A stretch of 27,011 nucleotides of DNA, from IMG/VR virus record IMGVR_UViG_3300028025_004310, positions 1-27,011 of that record; one strand, written 5' to 3'. A program made the position numbers and the translations under genes. Positions within the stretch are counted from its first letter, which is position 1, and the number at the start of each line of letters is the position of its first letter. The notes below the pieces were generated by a model. That model did no database searches. It was not told the origin of the DNA and worked only from the letters and a program-made list of their open reading frames with translations. The stretch is from a virus. Shown piece by piece: positions 5,644 through 21,515 of the stretch.

Positions 5644-6257
5644 TGGATGTGATAACTCCCATAGTAGGAACAAATAATATAAGAATGGCTGACTTTGTAA
5701 GGGTCACCACTCCTTCAGCTACTTATCGATTTGCAACCACTCCAAATATATTAACAATTCCTGCCGTTGATAGCGAGCCTTTTGATGCACTTGGCGCTTT
5801 AGTTCGTGTCGGCGATGTGCAAAGAGATATTAAATCAACTGCTAATGAAACAAATATAACTTTAGTGGGAATTGATACCGCATTATTAGGCTGGGTATTA
5901 GGTCAAGAAATTAAAGGCTCATTAATTGAAATGTGGCATGGATTTTTTGATGTTAATAATGAGCTTATAACTACAGGTGGCACAGGCGGTCTTTATAAAT
6001 TTTTTACAGGCTATATAAATTCTTTCACCATATCAGAACAATGGATGGAAGAAATAAGAATGTATGTAGGCATTATTGGTGTATCAGCATCTAGCACACA
6101 AATCATTCTTCAAAACAGAACTGCTGGCAGATTTACTAATGACAATGCGTGGCAATTTTTTAATCCAGGCGACACATCAATGGATCGCGTAGCATTTATT
6201 CAAGGTGTTAATTATTTCTTTGGAAAGAGTTTGGACCCATCAGTTTATAAGACATGA
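5643..6257 (+). CDS. Minor tail protein (DUF2163-like)
   Basis: A 204-residue beta-rich protein. It contains FVRVTTPSATYRFATTPNIL and YVGIIGVSASSTQIILQNRT, followed by RFTNDNAWQFFNPGDTSMDR. Asn/Trp-containing turns like this and the ending FIQGVNYFFGKS resemble minor tail proteins between the tape measure and the central tip protein. A similar order (two minor tail proteins, then a small protein, then the hub) is common in rhodobacterial gene transfer agent-like and related phages, where DUF2163 proteins sit here. The family assignment is tentative. The TGA stop overlaps the next start (ATGA). Confidence 0.5.
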   Translation: MDVITPIVGTNNIRMADFVRVTTPSATYRFATTPNILTIPAVDSEPFDALGALVRVGDVQRDIKSTANETNITLVGIDTALLGWVLGQEIKGSLIEMWHGFFDVNNELITTGGTGGLYKFFTGYINSFTISEQWMEEIRMYVGIIGVSASSTQIILQNRTAGRFTNDNAWQFFNPGDTSMDRVAFIQGVNYFFGKSLDPSVYKT

Positions 6258-6679
6258 TTCGATTTGCTAATAAATACGATAACGATAAGATAATAGAACT
6301 ACTAAAAGACTTTGCAATTAAATCGGATAATCCATTAACAAAGAATCCGTTAAGCTGGTCAAAGACTTATGTTGAATCTATTTTAAATACTTTGTATGCA
6401 GGTCATGGATTTGTATTAGTCGATGATAAGATAACAGGATTCCTAGTGGCTTATAAAAGCCAATCTTTTTGGAATAAAGATATTTACCAATTACAAGAAG
6501 TTATGTTGCATGGTCAAACCAAAATTGTAATTGCAAGATTGATTAAAGAATATATTAAAATAGGAAAAGATATGACAGATAAACATGAGATAAATCAAGC
6601 AGTTATGTCAAGCTATCCTCATGTTGATTTAAGTAAGTTTGGATTAAAATTATTAGAACATCATTGGGAAATTAAGTAA
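6254..6679 (+). CDS. GNAT-like acetyltransferase in tail operon
   Basis: A 141-residue protein with the beginning expected of a Gcn5-related N-acetyltransferase: MIRFANKYDNDKIIELLKDF (strand then helix). This is followed by a strand pair GHGFVLVDDKITGFLVAYKS and then a YQLQEVMLHGQTK region corresponding to the acceptor side. The canonical acetyl-CoA loop (Q/R-x-x-G-x-G/A) is not clear, so it may be a degenerate or structural relative. It is translationally coupled to both neighbours (ATGA overlap upstream, one-base overlap downstream). Its position between a minor tail protein and the tip protein suggests a role linked to the tail or its target. Confidence 0.45.
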   Translation: MIRFANKYDNDKIIELLKDFAIKSDNPLTKNPLSWSKTYVESILNTLYAGHGFVLVDDKITGFLVAYKSQSFWNKDIYQLQEVMLHGQTKIVIARLIKEYIKIGKDMTDKHEINQAVMSSYPHVDLSKFGLKLLEHHWEIK

Positions 6680-9600
6680 TGGGTGGATTTATTGTAAGTT
6701 CTGCTTTTGGAGCTGCGTTTGCTGCCACACTTGGCGGGCAAATATTAGCATTTGCAATAAATATGGTTATATCGTCTGTTATATCCTCTGTGTTTGCACC
6801 TGACGCACCTAATCAAGGCGCGCAACAATCTCAACCCAATCCAGGCAATAGACAACAAGCCCCGCCCGCAGGCGACAATAAACTTCCTATAGTTTACGGA
6901 ACTGCTTATGTCGGCGGCATTATTGTTGATATGTCAATTAGCTCTGACAATCAAGATATTTATTGGGTGTTTGCTTTATCTGAAGTTACTAATACTGAAA
7001 CAGGTGGCACGCCTGATACATTTAGTTTTGGTCAAATTTATTGGGGTGGTAAAAGAGTAGTATTTAGCACAACTGCTGGTGAGCTATACAAAGTTTTAGG
7101 ATTGCTAGATGAATCCACAGGCGAAACTCAAGATATTACAGGATATATGGATATATATCTTTATAGAAATGGATCAAATAATCCTGTAAATACTACGCAA
7201 TCTGCTATTCAAGTTATGAATACAAGTGGACTTGTATATACTTGGAGCGGTTCTAAATTAATGAGCAATACAGTATTTGCTATTGTTCACATGAAATATA
7301 GTCAATCAAGAAACCTTGTATCTTTAAATCAAACTCGTTTTCAAATTACAAATTCAAGAACGCTACCAGGCGATTGCTTTTTAGATTATTTATCATCAAC
7401 TAGATATGGTGCGGCAATTCCTGTAGCTCAAATTGATACTATTAGCCTTACAGACTTAAACACTTATTCAAGCACTACAATTCCATATACAACTTACACA
7501 GGCGGATCAGCCACAGTATCTAAATTTGCATTTAATGGCACTTTATTAACAACTCAAAAAATAATGCAAAACATTCAAAACATGGCTAATTGTTGCGATT
7601 GTTTGGTTAGATATAATGAAATTACAAGTCAATGGGGTGTTATTGTTCAAAAGACTACTTACACAGTAGCTATGGCAATTGACAATACAAATACGATTGG
7701 CGGAATAACAGTAAGCCCAATTGATATATCTAATTCATTTAATGTTATTGAAACTAAATTTCCTGATGGATCAGAAAAAGACAGTTTTTCATCTGCTACT
7801 TTTGATCTAGCACAAATTGATCCAAGTCTTTTATTTCCTAATGAGCCTGTTAATAAACAATCAGTTAATCTTTATTTAACTAATAACAATGTAACCGCTC
7901 AATATCTTGCCAATAGAATGTTAAAAGCGGCAAGGGAAGATTTACAAATTCAAGTAGAAATTAATTTTACAGGGCTTCAATTAGACGCTGGCGATATAGT
8001 AACAGTTACTAATGCCAATTATGGATGGAATGCTAAACTATTTAGAATTACAAAAGTAACTCAAAAATTTAGTGATACAGGCACTATTACTGCTCAACTT
8101 TTCTTATCAGAATTTAATCCAGCAGTATTTGACGATATGCCAATTACTGAATTTACTCCAAGTCCAAATACAGGCATTGGAAGCCCTACAACTTTTGGCA
8201 CAGTTTATGCGCCTGTAATTACTGCACAATATCCATCTATTACTAACCCTGCATTTACAATAAGAATACAAACTTCAAGTGCGGGTATTTCTGAATATGC
8301 AGAAATTTATTATTCAGCTTATCAATACCCTACAGACGATCAACTTATATTTGCAGGAACGACTGAAGTGCAACCAGGCGGAAGTCCTTATGTAGTTAAT
8401 ACTTATATGCCTGATGTGCAATTATTTAATATACCCGCAGGCGATTGGTATTTCTTTACTCGCATGGTTAATAATTTAGCTAATAGTAATTATTCATTGG
8501 CTTCAGCTAAACTTACATGGCGACCTACAACATTCCAATATACAGAAAAATTCCTTTCTGTAGCTTATGCAGATACTATTGACGGATTAACTAATTTTAG
8601 TTTAAACCCTACAGGTAGGCTTTATTATGGTCTTTATAATAATGCTTCCACAAGCCCATCAACTACACCTTCAGACTATAAATGGTATCTAGCTGATCCT
8701 GCTTTTGGCACTAATAAATTTTTATGCTTTATTAATAGAACAGGTCGCAAGTTTAGTTTTGACACAGACTTTGCTGATTACGCTTCAGGCACAGGACAAT
8801 TTGTGCCAACAACTATTGCAGACTTTGATCCTAGATTATGGTCAGCTTTGCCTGACGGATTAAATGTTATTGATCTTGATAATAAGACAGGTCAATTAAT
8901 TACTACAGGAACAACTACTACAGGCACAGGGCAAGTTAAAGTATCTAATACAGGCGATGGTCAATTAATAGCTTCTTTAGATCAATTCCTAGACTTTGGT
9001 GGACCTGCTACTTTTACAGGATCAGCCGCTACAATTACAGTTGATATTTATGGTCGAGTGGTAGGATTTACAACACCTGATAACTTCTATATGACTATAG
9101 ATTATTTTGATGCAACTGCTTCTCAAACAGTCTTTTCAGTTACTCGTGCTGCAACTTATATTCAAGGTCAATGCCTAGTATTTATAAATGGTCTTTTATT
9201 ATCTGATACAGAATACACAGATACGGGTGGGGCTACAGGCACAGTTACTTTAAGCACAGGCGCGACATTAAACGATGTAGTAACTATTTATTCAATGAGA
9301 GCTATATCAAGTGGCAATTTTTATGACAATACCCATCTTAATGTTGCAAGCGTAGCGGGTGCTAATGTTACTTGGAATATTGCTGAAATGCCATTTCAAT
9401 TAATTAATGCTGGCGATATTATGACTTTTAGTAATACTGGCACGCCAACTCAATATACAGTATCTAGTGTTAATTACGGAACGGCAACTATTACATTTAC
9501 CACTTCACCTACAGGATTAACGGCTGGCGATCCTATATATACTTATAGAGCTTCAGGATCAAGCTATCCTGTATTTAGCAGATTTGAAGCTACATTAACT

Positions 9601-10005
9601 TCAGCTTCATCTTATACACCTACAACATGGTTTTTTAATTCAGGTTACGAACTTCCTTTTTATAACGGAACTATTGTGCCTGATTCTGATTATGATATTG
9701 TAGGAAATACTTATACTAATATTCCAGCCGTATCCGATGGTCTTTTAACTATTATTCAATTTAGCGGAAACAATACAACAACTCCTACAGGCACTCCACA
9801 AAATGTGATTACATTTACTACTATTGGGCAAATTTTTTATTCATTTAATTTTACAAATGGGGCTTTAGGAATTTATGCAAATGGTGTATTATATGAAGGC
9901 GGTGTGGATTATACGACTTCTACTAATAGCTATACATTAACTAATAGCCCTACAGAATCATTTATAATTCAACAACAAACATTCGCTCGCGCAGGTGCGG
10001 CATAA
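6679..10005 (+). CDS. Tail tip / central hub protein with fibre-like C-terminus
   Basis: A 1108-residue protein. The N-terminal 45 residues are hydrophobic and Ala/Gly-rich (FGAAFAATLGGQILAFAINM). They are followed by a Pro/Gln-rich linker and KLPIVYGTAYVGG, the conserved start of lambda gpJ-like hub proteins. The hub core continues to about residue 480 (for example LQLDAGDIVTVTN and FRITKVTQKF). A fibronectin-like stretch follows at about 510-620. The C-terminal third has adhesin-like beta modules: one around residues 805-875 (ASQTVFSV, VFINGLLLSDTEYTD) and one around 1020-1108 (YANGVLYEGGVDYTT). A similar module ends the collagen-like fibre at 13446-16082. The protein likely forms the tail hub and contacts the host receptor. 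Confidence 0.8.
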   Translation: MGGFIVSSAFGAAFAATLGGQILAFAINMVISSVISSVFAPDAPNQGAQQSQPNPGNRQQAPPAGDNKLPIVYGTAYVGGIIVDMSISSDNQDIYWVFALSEVTNTETGGTPDTFSFGQIYWGGKRVVFSTTAGELYKVLGLLDESTGETQDITGYMDIYLYRNGSNNPVNTTQSAIQVMNTSGLVYTWSGSKLMSNTVFAIVHMKYSQSRNLVSLNQTRFQITNSRTLPGDCFLDYLSSTRYGAAIPVAQIDTISLTDLNTYSSTTIPYTTYTGGSATVSKFAFNGTLLTTQKIMQNIQNMANCCDCLVRYNEITSQWGVIVQKTTYTVAMAIDNTNTIGGITVSPIDISNSFNVIETKFPDGSEKDSFSSATFDLAQIDPSLLFPNEPVNKQSVNLYLTNNNVTAQYLANRMLKAAREDLQIQVEINFTGLQLDAGDIVTVTNANYGWNAKLFRITKVTQKFSDTGTITAQLFLSEFNPAVFDDMPITEFTPSPNTGIGSPTTFGTVYAPVITAQYPSITNPAFTIRIQTSSAGISEYAEIYYSAYQYPTDDQLIFAGTTEVQPGGSPYVVNTYMPDVQLFNIPAGDWYFFTRMVNNLANSNYSLASAKLTWRPTTFQYTEKFLSVAYADTIDGLTNFSLNPTGRLYYGLYNNASTSPSTTPSDYKWYLADPAFGTNKFLCFINRTGRKFSFDTDFADYASGTGQFVPTTIADFDPRLWSALPDGLNVIDLDNKTGQLITTGTTTTGTGQVKVSNTGDGQLIASLDQFLDFGGPATFTGSAATITVDIYGRVVGFTTPDNFYMTIDYFDATASQTVFSVTRAATYIQGQCLVFINGLLLSDTEYTDTGGATGTVTLSTGATLNDVVTIYSMRAISSGNFYDNTHLNVASVAGANVTWNIAEMPFQLINAGDIMTFSNTGTPTQYTVSSVNYGTATITFTTSPTGLTAGDPIYTYRASGSSYPVFSRFEATLTSASSYTPTTWFFNSGYELPFYNGTIVPDSDYDIVGNTYTNIPAVSDGLLTIIQFSGNNTTTPTGTPQNVITFTTIGQIFYSFNFTNGALGIYANGVLYEGGVDYTTSTNSYTLTNSPTESFIIQQQTFARAGAA

Positions 10006-10014
10006 GGGGAAAAG

Positions 10015-10818
10015 ATGACACAAGCATTTAATTTAAGTCAATTTGCCAATAAGGTAAATACTTCAGGACAGGCTAGTTTAACGACTGCCGTTACAGGAAC
10101 GCTTCCAACTGCCAATGGCGGAACAGGCGTTACAACTGCATCTAATGGTCAACTTCTTATTGGGAACGGATCAGGATTTACTGCGGCTACTATTACACAA
10201 GGGTCAGGGATTACAGTAACAAACGGATCAGGCTCAATTACAATTGCGGCGGCATCTAGCGGCGGTCAATTACAAACTGAAGTATTTACAAGCCCTGGCA
10301 CTTGGACAAAACCTGCATCGGCTACACGAGTAAAGGTATCTTTGGTTGGTGGTGGTGGCGGCGGTTCAGGGGCAGGCACTACACCTGGCGGATCTGGAGG
10401 TCGCGGTGGTTATGCAAGTGCAAATGTCCCAGTTTCTGCTCCAGTTGCAATTACAGTAGGTTCAGCAGGTAGTGGTGGTAATTCAGGTGGTGGTGCTGGT
10501 AGCCCTGGCGGAACTTCATCTTTTGGACCAGCCGTATCAGCAACTGGCGGAGCGGGAGCAGCCGCTCCAGGAGCAGCTAGTCCTGGATCAGGAACTGTAT
10601 CTGTTGGAACGGCAATAAATATAACTAGCGCTACTTCTGACCCAAATTTAGGAGGAGATGGTAACGCTAATACTTCCCAAGGTGCAGTTGCTTATAGTAT
10701 TCCAGCACAAAATCGTGGTGGTCAAGGTGGTCCAAGTGGGCTTGCACCTACCGCTCCTGGGCAGGGTTTTGGTAGAGGTGGTATAGGCGGAGTAGTTGTA
10801 GTAGAATATGTAGGGTAA
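10015..10818 (+). CDS. Glycine-rich tail fibre / receptor-binding protein
   Basis: A 267-residue secreted-style structural protein with ribosome binding site AGGGGAAAAG. Residues 29-56 hold the fibre motif TLPTANGGTGVTTASNGQLL, found in many phage tail fibres and spikes. Residues 90-110 (VFTSPGTWTKPASATRVKVS) lead into a glycine-rich domain (111-267) with runs such as VGGGGGGSG and GQGGPSG. It ends in GGIGGVVVVEYVG. This architecture matches the glycine-rich domain of phage adhesins, where stacked polyglycine helices form a sandwich and variable loops bind the receptor. It is the best candidate for host-range determinant next to the tip protein. There are no charged clusters in the Gly domain. 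Confidence 0.75.
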   Translation: MTQAFNLSQFANKVNTSGQASLTTAVTGTLPTANGGTGVTTASNGQLLIGNGSGFTAATITQGSGITVTNGSGSITIAAASSGGQLQTEVFTSPGTWTKPASATRVKVSLVGGGGGGSGAGTTPGGSGGRGGYASANVPVSAPVAITVGSAGSGGNSGGGAGSPGGTSSFGPAVSATGGAGAAAPGAASPGSGTVSVGTAINITSATSDPNLGGDGNANTSQGAVAYSIPAQNRGGQGGPSGLAPTAPGQGFGRGGIGGVVVVEYVG

Positions 10819-12242: not shown

Positions 12243-12865
12243 TAAATTTAATGCAATTTAAAAATTTTGGATATTTATTAACAGATTTATCTGAAAATCA
12301 ATTAAATCCAATTAAAGAAGAAATTAATTATATTAAAAATAATTCTTTAAAAGCAATTTCATTTAACAAAAATTTAGTTGGCAATTTAGAACATGAATAT
12401 GAATTAATTGAATCTAAAGATTATATTAATTCATTATTAATTCCTTATATTAATGAATATGAAAAATATTATAATTATATAAAAAACATTAATATATTAA
12501 ATAGAGATTTAGAATTAAAAATAGAAAAATTATGGGTTAATTTTCAAAAAAAATATGAATTTAATCCTTTGCATATACATGCAGGCGTTTTTAGTTTTGT
12601 AATTTGGATTGACATTCCTTATAATATAAAAGATGAAATGGAAAATAAATCAAGTAAAAATTCACTTGATAATATTCCAGGTCATTTTCAATTTGTAGCT
12701 ATTAATTCAATGGGGGAATTAATTAAAGAGAATATTCCTGCTGATAAAACATATAATGGAAAATTATGCATATTTCCATCTAAAATGAATCATTGTGTAT
12801 ATCCATTTTATACATCAGATGAATATAGAATAACAGTTTCAGGAAATTTTAAGTTTGAAATATAA
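12239..12865 (+). CDS. Putative 2-oxoglutarate-Fe(II) oxygenase
   Basis: A 208-residue protein coupled to the preceding dioxygenase by a 4-base overlap. The N-terminal half is helical and very rich in Asn, Lys and Ile. The C-terminal half has LWVNFQKKYEFNPLHIHAG with H112 and H114, a strand FSFVIWIDIPYN, and then IFPSKMNHCVYPF with distal H185, followed by R197 in EYRITVSGNF. The FPS-x-x-x-H-x-V-x-P and R-I-T/S-x-S-G-N/F pattern resembles the 2OG-FeII_Oxy_5 family common in aquatic phages. The usual H-x-D is replaced by H-x-H or shifted, so activity is less certain. The coding sequence is strikingly AT-rich compared with neighbouring tail genes, suggesting separate acquisition. Confidence 0.6.
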   Translation: MINLMQFKNFGYLLTDLSENQLNPIKEEINYIKNNSLKAISFNKNLVGNLEHEYELIESKDYINSLLIPYINEYEKYYNYIKNINILNRDLELKIEKLWVNFQKKYEFNPLHIHAGVFSFVIWIDIPYNIKDEMENKSSKNSLDNIPGHFQFVAINSMGELIKENIPADKTYNGKLCIFPSKMNHCVYPFYTSDEYRITVSGNFKFEI

Positions 12866-19170: not shown

Positions 19171-19200
19171 CAATAAAAAAGGGGCATTTTAAGCCCCTTA
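19171..19200 (-). terminator. Intrinsic terminator downstream of pqqA
   Basis: The stem AAGGGGC / GCCCCTT (19179-19185 and 19193-19199, loop of seven bases) is followed on the minus strand by TTTTTTATTG, a good rho-independent terminator. It lies 29 bases after the pqqA stop and would end the leftward early transcript. On the plus strand the hairpin is followed only by AATTTAAT, so it may work there weakly as well. Confidence 0.8.
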
Positions 19201-19228: not shown

Positions 19229-19300
19229 TTACTTGTTCATTATATACATCGTCACTTCAAAGCCAAAACGCATTTCTGTAGCTGCTGGAGTTGTCCACAT
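19229..19300 (-). CDS. pqqA: PqqA-like precursor peptide of PQQ
   Basis: A 23-codon gene with ribosome binding site AAAGGGGG a few bases before the ATG. The peptide begins MWTTPAATEMRFG and continues FEVTMYIMNK. It has the PqqA pattern M-W-x-x-P, then G-x-E-V-T-x-Y. E15 and Y19 stand exactly where the crosslinked Glu and Tyr of the family lie, and the length equals that of the 23-residue Klebsiella-type PqqA. In bacteria PqqE links these two residues with PqqD's help, proteases release them, and later enzymes make pyrroloquinoline quinone, the cofactor of methanol and other dehydrogenases. No pqqB-E gene is in this window, so the host must supply the pathway. It is followed by a terminator and preceded by a structured 207-base gap. 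Confidence 0.88.
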   Translation of the reverse strand: MWTTPAATEMRFGFEVTMYIMNK

Positions 19301-19385
19301 AGTATCCCCCTTTGATTAATAAATGTTGCAAGTTAATTATGGGCTTATTTATAAACAAATCCATCAGTAAAATCATTAAAATGGC

Positions 19386-19452
19386 GTGGGCTATAAGTGC
19401 ATGAATCCGACGCACATTATTAATCTTAATTCATGCCCCCACACAGCATGAA
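19386..19452 (-). promoter_or_regulatory. Switch-like RNA structure upstream of pqqA
   Basis: Read on the minus strand this stretch has three matching segments: TTCATGC (19452-19446), GCATGAAT (19436-19429) and ATTCATGC (19406-19399). The middle segment can pair with either outer one, not both. The second pairing is extended by GTGGG (19442-19438) with CCCAC (19390-19386), and GTGGG is the loop of the first hairpin. After the longer hairpin comes GCCATTTTAATGATTTT, a poor T-rich tract. This mutually exclusive layout is the logic of attenuators and riboswitches. The pqqA start lies about 85 bases further on. Ligand and function are unknown, and no known riboswitch class was recognised. Confidence 0.45.
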
Positions 19453-19456
19453 AGCA

Positions 19457-19500
19457 CCTTATCAACTCCGACCACAATCAAGATAAGGATTGATTTGTGG
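19457..19500 (-). other. Possible H-type pseudoknot after the SSB-like gene
   Basis: On the minus strand CCACAAATCAA (19500-19490) can pair with TTGATTGTGG (19481-19472), with one bulged base. Its loop contains CCTTATC (19488-19482), which is a perfect complement of GATAAGG at 19463-19457 downstream. This is the topology of an H-type pseudoknot. It begins seven bases after the TAA of the SSB-like gene. It may be a transcript-end or leader structure. Confidence 0.45.
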
Positions 19501-19507
19501 AAGTTCT

Positions 19508-19735
19508 TTAAAATGGTAAGTCAGTTTTATCCTCTGATCCACCAGCTTGTTTAGGTTGAGGTTCTCTCATTGTTACCCAGCCGTCAAAATTGACAGGGAT
19601 TGATTCAATAAGAAGTGAAGTGCCACCTTGTTTGTTGCTCATAGCAACGCCTACTTTTTGCCATCTAGCTTTTGTTTCGCCAGCCGCATTAGTGTATTCG
19701 CCTGTTTTAGCGATTAAATCGTGTGTGATAGCCAT
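19508..19735 (-). CDS. SSB-like small single-strand DNA-binding protein
   Basis: A 75-residue protein. The first 55 residues contain HDLIAKTGEYTNAAGETKAR followed by WQKVGVAMSNKQGG, which looks like the start of an OB-type strand set (K-x-R/W-x-K-V-G motif). The tail is acidic and ends DKTDLPF, the classic C-terminal tip of SSB proteins that recruits recombination and replication partners. It is far shorter than cellular SSB (about 170 residues). It overlaps the upstream exonuclease gene by one base, and the exonuclease/ERF neighbours support a role in single-strand annealing recombination. It is the last protein gene before the structured gap and pqqA. Confidence 0.65.
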   Translation of the reverse strand: MAITHDLIAKTGEYTNAAGETKARWQKVGVAMSNKQGGTSLLIESIPVNFDGWVTMREPQPKQAGGSEDKTDLPF

Positions 19736-20376
19736 TATTTTATTTCCTTTAAGTTATTTACGATAGTTTCTATTTCAGACAAAAAGGCGATCACCGCATT
19801 CTGCATGTTATTAATATATTCATCATCTCGATAAATACGCTTTACGAATCCTTGTAAATGATCGGGCATTTCAGGATCATAAGATACAAGGTCGCAAAAT
19901 TCTTTTTCAGGCATACAAGCTAATTGCCATTGCACTTGGTCATAATACTGTTCTAATTGTTTACCACCTGTTAGGATGTTATCCAAATGGTTTTCAGGGT
20001 TAGGTATTTTTATCTCAATTAAGGAATTAGTGGCTTCTACTAATCCGTCAGGGCTACATTGAGCGCCATTAATTGTAGGGTGTAAAACGATTGCTACCTG
20101 ATCCACAAAAGTATTATATTTAACTTCATACCATGCCCTAGCCATAGGTTCTAAATCGATTCCTCGTTGCATTGCAGGCGTTTTATAGGTATCTAATTTC
20201 TTACCCGTCAATCTTTCTCTAATCAATTCATTCTTATACTTTTTACGAGTTAAAGATTCAGAGCCACCTCGACCTTCAGTTAAAACATCAGCAACCCTTG
20301 AGCCGCCAATCTTACCTATTCTTAAAGCCATCCATTCAGGACTGCCTTGTTCTATACCTTTTATTATTCTATCCAT
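19735..20376 (-). CDS. YqaJ / lambda Exo-type recombination exonuclease
   Basis: A 213-residue PD-(D/E)xK nuclease. It starts with GIEQGSPEWMALRIGKIGGS, the E-W-x-x-x-R-x-G-x-x-G-G-S motif. RGIDLEPMARAWYE gives the helix Glu (E76). CSPDGLVEATNSLIEIKIPN gives D110, E121 and K123, and YYDQVQWQLAC has the conserved Gln (Q147). All expected catalytic residues are present. It would degrade 5' strands of double-stranded ends to make single strands for the ERF protein encoded two genes upstream. Length is normal for the family. It overlaps the upstream gene by 8 bases. Confidence 0.9.
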   Translation of the reverse strand: MDRIIKGIEQGSPEWMALRIGKIGGSRVADVLTEGRGGSESLTRKKYKNELIRERLTGKKLDTYKTPAMQRGIDLEPMARAWYEVKYNTFVDQVAIVLHPTINGAQCSPDGLVEATNSLIEIKIPNPENHLDNILTGGKQLEQYYDQVQWQLACMPEKEFCDLVSYDPEMPDHLQGFVKRIYRDDEYINNMQNAVIAFLSEIETIVNNLKEIK

Positions 20377-20806: not shown

Positions 20807-20976
20807 AGTTTAGGGCTTTGAATTCTGCCATATAAAGGGGCTAATAGGTATTTATCACCCAGCTCTCTTTTAATAGCTTCTATTCTTGTTTTACGGGCTT
20901 CTATAGCCATTAATTCTTGCGCGGAATAGGGTAGCGTCACTCCGTAAAAATTACTGTTTCTTAATCCTTCCATCAT
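20803..20976 (-). CDS. Hypothetical small protein between ERF and nuclease genes
   Basis: A 57-residue protein linked to both neighbours by ATGA overlaps: its ATG overlaps the ERF stop and its TGA overlaps the next ATG. The peptide starts MMEGLRNSNFYGVTLPYSAQ and has a charged helix ELMAIEARKTRIEAIKRELG, then a conserved-looking end LLAPLYGRIQSP. No family recognised. The exact start may be the second ATG at 20973. The tight overlaps and coding-like residue pattern make it a real gene. Confidence 0.7.
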   Translation of the reverse strand: MMEGLRNSNFYGVTLPYSAQELMAIEARKTRIEAIKRELGDKYLLAPLYGRIQSPKL

Positions 20977-21515
20977 AGTTCCGCCTTTCTTTTATCTTTA
21001 GCTTCAATAACCATTTTAGATAAGGTGCGATCATTCTTAACTTCGCCCATAACAAAATTATAATTAGCCTGGAGTTCTTCTAATGATTGTGATTGGGTAA
21101 TTCTTTGAAGATAATCTGCGGCATTAAGCGCGGCTGATTGGCCATCATCGTCATCGGCATAAACGGCACACATGGCTGATAAACTATAACGGCGGATATA
21201 ACTAATGGCGCTTCCAAGTCCTTGCGGGTCCTGTTTTTGTATAGGGCAGACGGCAGTATCCTCAATCCATTCCCCCGAACTATGGATTAAACGAGTTGTT
21301 AAATGGAGTTTATTGTCGTCTGATGGGCTTAATGATTGAATTAAAGCTATGCCATTATTATTAAGTGGCGCTTTAACGGCATCAATAACTGAATTGATAT
21401 TGGCATACTTGGATTTGTAATGAGGATTAGTTGAATCTTTAACGGCAAATCTAATTTCTTTTTGCGCCGATACTAAAGCTTCAGCAATCTGTTTGATGCT
21501 TTCGGATGTTTTCAT
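20973..21515 (-). CDS. erf: ERF-family single-strand annealing recombinase
   Basis: A 180-residue protein with ERF superfamily features. The N-terminal helix IAEALVSAQKEIRFAVKDST is followed by NPHYKSKYANINSVIDAVKA, then PLNNNGIALIQSLSPSDDN, and the typical G-L-G-S-A-I-S-Y-I-R-R-Y-S-L-S-A segment at about 101-116. After this comes the acidic CAVYADDDDGQSA. ERF proteins form rings that bind and anneal complementary single strands, often for genome circularisation or repair. The C-terminal 50 residues are helical and charged. Ribosome binding site AAGGACA lies before the ATG. With the exonuclease and SSB-like genes it forms a complete annealing module. Confidence 0.9.
   Translation of the reverse strand: MKTSESIKQIAEALVSAQKEIRFAVKDSTNPHYKSKYANINSVIDAVKAPLNNNGIALIQSLSPSDDNKLHLTTRLIHSSGEWIEDTAVCPIQKQDPQGLGSAISYIRRYSLSAMCAVYADDDDGQSAALNAADYLQRITQSQSLEELQANYNFVMGEVKNDRTLSKMVIEAKDKRKAEL

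Follow-up and report, generated by a model that had tools for sequence, protein, structure and literature searches.

The window (the whole stretch of DNA analysed here, 27,011 nucleotides of IMG/VR record IMGVR_UViG_3300028025_004310) encodes a 23-residue peptide, MWTTPAATEMRFGFEVTMYIMNK, in the last gene of a leftward phage recombination operon (Table 1). The peptide matches the Pfam PqqA profile (PF08042) over model positions 1–19 of 19, with 40.3 bits against a cut-off of 21.1 (E = 3e-10), and the NCBIfam equivalog TIGR02107 over positions 1–21 of 21, with 38.8 bits against a cut-off of 20 (E = 5.6e-10). It also has the E-x-x-x-Y spacing of the PqqE crosslink pair, here Glu15 and Tyr19; these residues are the counterparts of Glu16 and Tyr20 in M. 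extorquens PqqA, the pair joined by PqqE (PMC10906245). At the level of sequence, MWTTPAATEMRFGFEVTMYIMNK is confirmed as a true, full-length PqqA. A preliminary description of this DNA had proposed a 23-codon minus-strand pqqA with both crosslink residues in their classic positions and a ribosome binding site, and had named the PF08042 search as a check. The open reading frame, the alignment with the M. extorquens peptide, the Shine-Dalgarno sequence and the strong profile match bear this out.

Table 1. Features at and around pqqA, in window coordinates.
Feature	Position	Strand	Remarks
pqqA	19229–19300	minus	23-aa PQQ precursor MWTTPAATEMRFGFEVTMYIMNK, 23 codons; ATG at 19300, stop at 19231–19229; profile matches, and same place in 62 of 65 relatives
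Shine-Dalgarno AAAGGGGG	19306–19313	minus	upstream of pqqA; from sequence
CATAAT, possible -10 element	19336–19341	minus	~35 bp before the pqqA start codon; promoter activity not demonstrated
Intrinsic terminator AAGGGGCTTAAAATGCCCCTT-TTTTATT	19172–19199	minus	strong; end of the leftward operon; predicted at 19199–19179
75-aa protein	19508–19735	minus	function not known; directly upstream of pqqA; neighbour in P19250A too
YqaJ/RecE-like recombination exonuclease	19735–20376	minus	PF09588, phrog_149; same operon as pqqA
Erf-like single-strand annealing protein	20973–21515	minus	PF04404, phrog_2324; same leftward operon
~123-bp stretch	19385–19507		between the 75-aa gene and pqqA
9-bp direct repeat CCATTTTAA	19376–19384 and 19508–19516		flanks the ~123-bp stretch

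In the operon, pqqA follows the YqaJ exonuclease and a 75-aa protein whose equivalent position in ctXG6705 is annotated as ssDNA-binding. As the preliminary description had it, no pqqB-E lies nearby: none was found among the window genes scanned with Pfam. Rfam detected no RNA element in the window, and ARAGORN no tRNA. The terminator downstream had been described as pqqA's own. However, in two relatives without pqqA (L326 and L367) the stop codon of the 75-aa gene is followed at once by the same terminator; it therefore belongs to the whole leftward operon, and in the family of Methylophilaceae phage P19250A pqqA sits between the operon's last gene and this terminator. Across viral pqqA copies with enough sequence, 92 of 186 have a terminator within ~110 bp, versus 75 of 1,735 other ORFs.

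A Shine-Dalgarno core lies 5′ of 97–99% of viral and host pqqA genes. Within 25–80 bp upstream, [TC]ATAATT is present in 43% of P19250A-type copies versus 7% in shuffles, and TATAAT in 32.5% of viral copies, against 11% in shuffles and 0.8% for host pqqA. These figures are pattern statistics and not mapped promoters, and a sigma-70 promoter scan around pqqA remained at chance level. In 57 of 165 viral cases the gene is oriented against both neighbours, and there it should therefore have a promoter of its own.

The ~123-bp stretch that separates pqqA from the 75-aa gene is absent from the relatives compared, and a 33-base probe from it has no exact copy in viral contigs. Its predicted RNA fold is unremarkable (z -1.0), and the stretch has the look of a small insertion made recently.

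Viral setting and predicted host

The window shares 81% DNA identity with P19250A over 72% of the 25 kb queried. P19250A has the same gene order and, in the same gap, a pqqA at 28085–28153 without annotation. The YqaJ exonuclease and Erf genes flank pqqA, and tail genes are found in the same contig. These flanks, the kinship with P19250A and the occurrence in isolates (see next section) satisfy the requirement that pqqA lie in a genuine viral genome and not in host contamination. The P19250A kinship and the peptide make a freshwater Methylophilaceae methylotroph the probable host. A methylotroph host, with Methylophilales as candidates, had been guessed at the outset, along with a comparison against candidate-host pqqA; the P19250A kinship agrees with the guess, and the commonest host peptide, MWTTPAATEMRFGFEVTMYVMNK, differs from the window peptide only at V20I.

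Two further observations concern these genomes. The P19250A gene at 28452–29108 (KX815270), annotated as a diguanylate cyclase/phosphodiesterase, is the positional counterpart of the YqaJ-type exonuclease of the window, and its annotation looks wrong. At 12771–12826 of the window, under a 2OG-Fe(II) oxygenase annotation, a 56-bp stretch matches Prochlorococcus phage P-SSM7 at 91% identity, which may be a relic of exchange between cyanophages and methylophages.

Occurrence, selection and mobility among viruses

With the exonuclease as bait we fetched 80 relatives and counted the 65 that had at least 900 bp downstream. Sixty-two of these carry pqqA in the same place and on the same strand; three lack it at the site. 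Among 40 distinct syntenic pqqA sequences, dN/dS is ~0.074 at a dS of ~0.66, and W2, P5, E9, R11, G13, E15, T17 and Y19 are invariant. An independent viral scan used the PqqA pattern with codons 15 and 19 left free. Glu15 and Tyr19 are present in 120 of 120 of the viral matches listed, with Tyr19 encoded by TAC in 65 and by TAT in 55. Conservation of this kind meets the expectation for purifying selection at the protein level. Loss of E15 or Y19 in related phages had been set down in advance as grounds for refutation, and same-place copies in related phages as a check; both residues are kept in the matches listed, and the copies are there.

A tblastn search for pqqA over 50,697 phage records matched P19250A, Venkman, MEP301, MEP401, MEP402 and four Melnitz strains, as well as one Manatee Spring podovirus of unknown host and two Acinetobacter-labelled contigs. 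Apart from the latter, which are of bacterial type, no phage of another named host in these records gave a match. Unannotated pqqA is present in all nine cultured methylophage genomes of the collection, which represent unrelated lineages; this count leaves out the isolates MEP431-434, HIM624-A, Venkman EXVC038S, MG-MtP1 and RSA-MfP1, which have taxonomy entries but did not appear in the phage collection. By terminase search, P19250A, Venkman, MEP301 and MEP401 fall into distinct groups, and Melnitz belongs to the Kyanoviridae. Single-linkage clustering merged lineages of viral loci by chaining and was left out of the lineage counts; searches of contig G112 for T4 portal and prohead protease found nothing, without a positive control. 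Pelagiphage terminases rank among the closest to those of Venkman and MEP301; pelagiphages had no pqqA match by tblastn. Nor did MW202697, a relative of MEP401 (74% TerL) with unknown host, so the gene is not universal among methylophage relatives.

One of the Acinetobacter-labelled contigs was checked (CAKLQF020000010.1, 'Acinetobacter phage MD-2021a', L008). It carries pqqA followed by pqqBCDE, polyphosphate kinase and other chromosomal-type genes; it was rejected as a pqqA phage and is probably a mislabelled bacterial contig.

At least 120 IMG/VR contigs match the PqqA pattern, each of those listed having a start codon, a stop codon and a Shine-Dalgarno-like stretch. With a second pattern (GME type) 29 contigs matched, of which 25 had not appeared before; almost all are PqqA-like, some of alphaproteobacterial type, and one (L404) looks like a chance match. 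Four contigs with alphaproteobacterial-type PqqA (L389, L401, L386 and L396; e.g. WSAPIVQEVCVGMEVTSYDSAEIDTFN) have no pqqB-E in their flanks, an indication that pqqA is also carried by phages or prophages of other PQQ producers. Within the available flanks, pqqB-E is absent from the 120 viral pqqA loci listed and from the GME-type loci. Each of 20 long viral contigs (32–356 kb) holds exactly one pqqA, and none has a PqqE over cut-off. The dependence on host PqqBCDE put forward in the preliminary description fits these absences.

The position and strand of pqqA vary between methylophage lineages; the notion that it always lies beside recombination genes was discarded, as MEP401 and Melnitz contradict it. 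Melnitz-type relatives with almost the same sequence beside the site differ by a clean ~135-bp insert, which contains pqqA and its ribosome binding site and lies between the stop codon of a gene and a tRNA-Leu. The gene occupies this position in 7 of 21 close relatives of Melnitz and in 0 of 25 more distant ones, and it is found in all three close relatives of MEP301. Empty sites in P19250A-type and Melnitz-type relatives fit gain as a clean cassette. pqqA therefore behaves as a moron that is nearly fixed in some lineages and polymorphic in others.

Host genes and the proposed role of phage pqqA

In GTDB, the matches listed for the phage-type motif fall only under Methylophilaceae, their genera, Methylophilales and unresolved proteobacterial names. 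All 100 Methylophilaceae genomes searched contain pqqA, in 1–12 copies (median 4; 3 in genomes up to 1.4 Mb). PqqE scored over cut-off in six of the seven hosts tested, usually as one copy; the seventh is the 0.9 Mb OM43 assembly AG-390-L14. Methylotroph genomes have been described with 3–12 pqqA per single pqqBCDE (PMC4109929). A homologue of a host metabolic gene, with the rest of the pathway in the host, is one criterion for an auxiliary metabolic gene (AMG), and phage pqqA meets it.

We consider it probable that the phage pqqA, derived from Methylophilaceae, raises PQQ precursor supply for the host methanol dehydrogenase during infection. The gene would have been acquired from Methylophilaceae, kept as a moron and, as far as its position alone can indicate, transcribed as the last gene in a P19250A-like siphophage's recombination operon. 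Host PqqD and PqqE would crosslink Glu15 to Tyr19 of the phage peptide, after which a host protease, PqqB and PqqC would finish PQQ; these normal-substrate steps are inferred from the near-identity with the host peptide and from established PQQ biochemistry. Because one PqqA is consumed per PQQ and one pqqBCDE set serves multiple pqqA, an extra, well-translated pqqA would give more precursor during infection. PQQ might thereby be sustained for methanol dehydrogenase, which in these hosts is of the XoxF type, as host gene expression declines, and electrons and C1 carbon might become available for phage replication. The PQQ rise, the crosslinking, the expression and the benefit to infection are all inferred, with no such measurements behind them. 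In this best explanation, phage pqqA is an AMG that gives a consumable substrate and no enzyme.

PqqA availability is described as rate-determining in Methylovorus MP688 (Ge 2015, cited in PMC11317620). The role also fits one viral pqqA contig (L411) that encodes both an XoxF-type methanol dehydrogenase and a formate dehydrogenase-like protein. Other observations count against it. The gene is not obligatory (3 of 65 P19250A relatives are without it, and only 7 of 21 close Melnitz relatives have it at the Melnitz position), and methanol dehydrogenase is absent from 19 of the 20 long pqqA contigs. The hosts own several pqqA, and one more copy may make little difference if the phage does not express it strongly. 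The OM43 strain H5P1 was grown with added PQQ, and PQQ may therefore be partly taken up (PMC9004378). According to Toyama and Lidstrom (1998, cited in PMC11317620), M. extorquens can make PQQ without its pqqA, though orphan pqqA copies were left out of account there.

The contig L411 (IMGVR_UViG_3300025120_009955, 72 kb) is of interest in itself. Its XoxF gene (TPHDEWDYDG) and, directly after it, the gene for a 946-aa formate dehydrogenase-like molybdopterin oxidoreductase lie in the region 5990–10784, near csgF/csgG and pqqA (~13888). This phage may run methanol and formate oxidation together.

The peptide might instead be conserved for some other role in the infected cell, such as lanthanide uptake, signalling or regulation. 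Two orphan pqqA copies are regulated by neodymium form, and PqqA has been suggested to act in a lanthanide uptake route (PMC11317620). We regard this as unlikely, since the conserved positions are those of a PqqE substrate, both crosslinked residues included, and the literature examined shows no separate PqqA function. Competition is also conceivable: a 1:1:1 PqqA-PqqD-PqqE complex is required (PMC10906245), so excess phage peptide could occupy PqqD/PqqE as a decoy or flood the pathway, lowering PQQ or stopping methanol oxidation. A non-productive peptide would be expected to lose or change its crosslink residues, whereas the phage peptides are identical or near-identical to host PqqA and retain Glu15 and Tyr19 in every copy. 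An XoxF gene is also present in one pqqA phage, and a decoy seems to us quite improbable.

Small host genes often serve as phage attachment sites. The several pqqA copies in the hosts and the clean presence or absence between close phages would likewise suit a neutral host fragment, or a DNA-level element such as an integration or recombination site, that is not kept for its product. We give this very little credence. A DNA-sequence match would forbid the many synonymous changes seen at a dN/dS of ~0.07, and it was because of this synonymous divergence that the attachment-site idea was dropped. Moreover, every viral copy examined retains its start, Shine-Dalgarno and stop, P19250A has no annotated integrase, and the upstream sequences are unlike those of host copies. 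A chance match to a 23-residue motif, for which only the shortness of the peptide speaks, is already refuted, with the pattern found in 0 of 100 shuffles of the window, ~8e-7 occurrences per window expected from composition, and the gene kept in place in relatives.

Beyond the supply of PQQ precursor in this one phage, we lean, though not strongly, towards a broader conjecture: methylophages as a rule furnish a peptide precursor that is consumed, a strategy dictated by the host, in which unrelated lineages each hold one pqqA as a small cassette that is gained and lost. The conjecture rests on PqqA running short as host expression falls while PQQ is still needed. If true, pqqA would be an AMG whose contribution is a ribosomally made cofactor substrate and not an enzyme, and it would come close to being a signature of the host group. 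Methylotrophs of the marine OM43 and freshwater LD28 groups are abundant. It is suggested that PQQ supply limits infection of methanol oxidisers, and a direct test of the role of pqqA is possible with phages and hosts already cultured. The gene was overlooked in every cultured methylophage genome checked and in more than 100 environmental viral contigs; very short metabolic genes escape routine phage annotation. The gene is also a short marker by which viral contigs can be linked to these hosts.

Relation to known systems

Viral pqqA as a kind is already known from single reports. The T4-like population VP_266 of Lake Baikal encodes PqqA and a viral methanol dehydrogenase, with a predicted Methylophilaceae host, and its authors proposed that the viral PqqA supports the methanol dehydrogenase (Coutinho et al. 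2020, PMC7678222). A 2026 reservoir study includes pqqA among virus-encoded genes (PMC13188868). The preliminary description is supported overall and needs amending in two respects: the terminator belongs to the operon, and viral PqqA had already been reported (PMC7678222). The searched literature contained no account of pqqA as a regular, nearly fixed methylophage gene. Papers on isolated OM43/LD28 phages report no methanol oxidation or PQQ genes, pqqA goes unmentioned in those on Venkman, MEP301, MEP401/402 and Melnitz, and PMC7678222 states that P19250A encodes none of these genes. The genome of P19250A does contain an unannotated pqqA, which corrects that statement. The pqqA genes of P19250A, Venkman, MEP301, MEP401/402 and Melnitz are 77–96% identical to that of the window; in five of the six isolates no annotated feature covers the gene, and in Melnitz it lies under a wrong-strand ORF.

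Like VP_266, the window virus encodes PqqA and has a predicted Methylophilaceae host. However, VP_266 is one T4-like metagenomic population, whereas the window belongs to a small P19250A-like phage with pqqA in nearly all family members; and, unlike in VP_266, no methanol dehydrogenase is seen in the 27 kb fragment. With host Methylophilaceae PqqA (PF08042/TIGR02107) the window peptide shares a full-length match above the cut-offs and near-identity to the commonest form, V20I apart. Its gene differs from host pqqA in lying in a phage recombination operon without pqqB-E and in having upstream sequences unlike those of the host. The orphan pqqA genes of methylotrophs, stand-alone copies away from pqqBCDE (PMC4109929, PMC9851590), resemble the window gene in standing alone, but they are chromosomal, whereas the copy described here is delivered by a phage.
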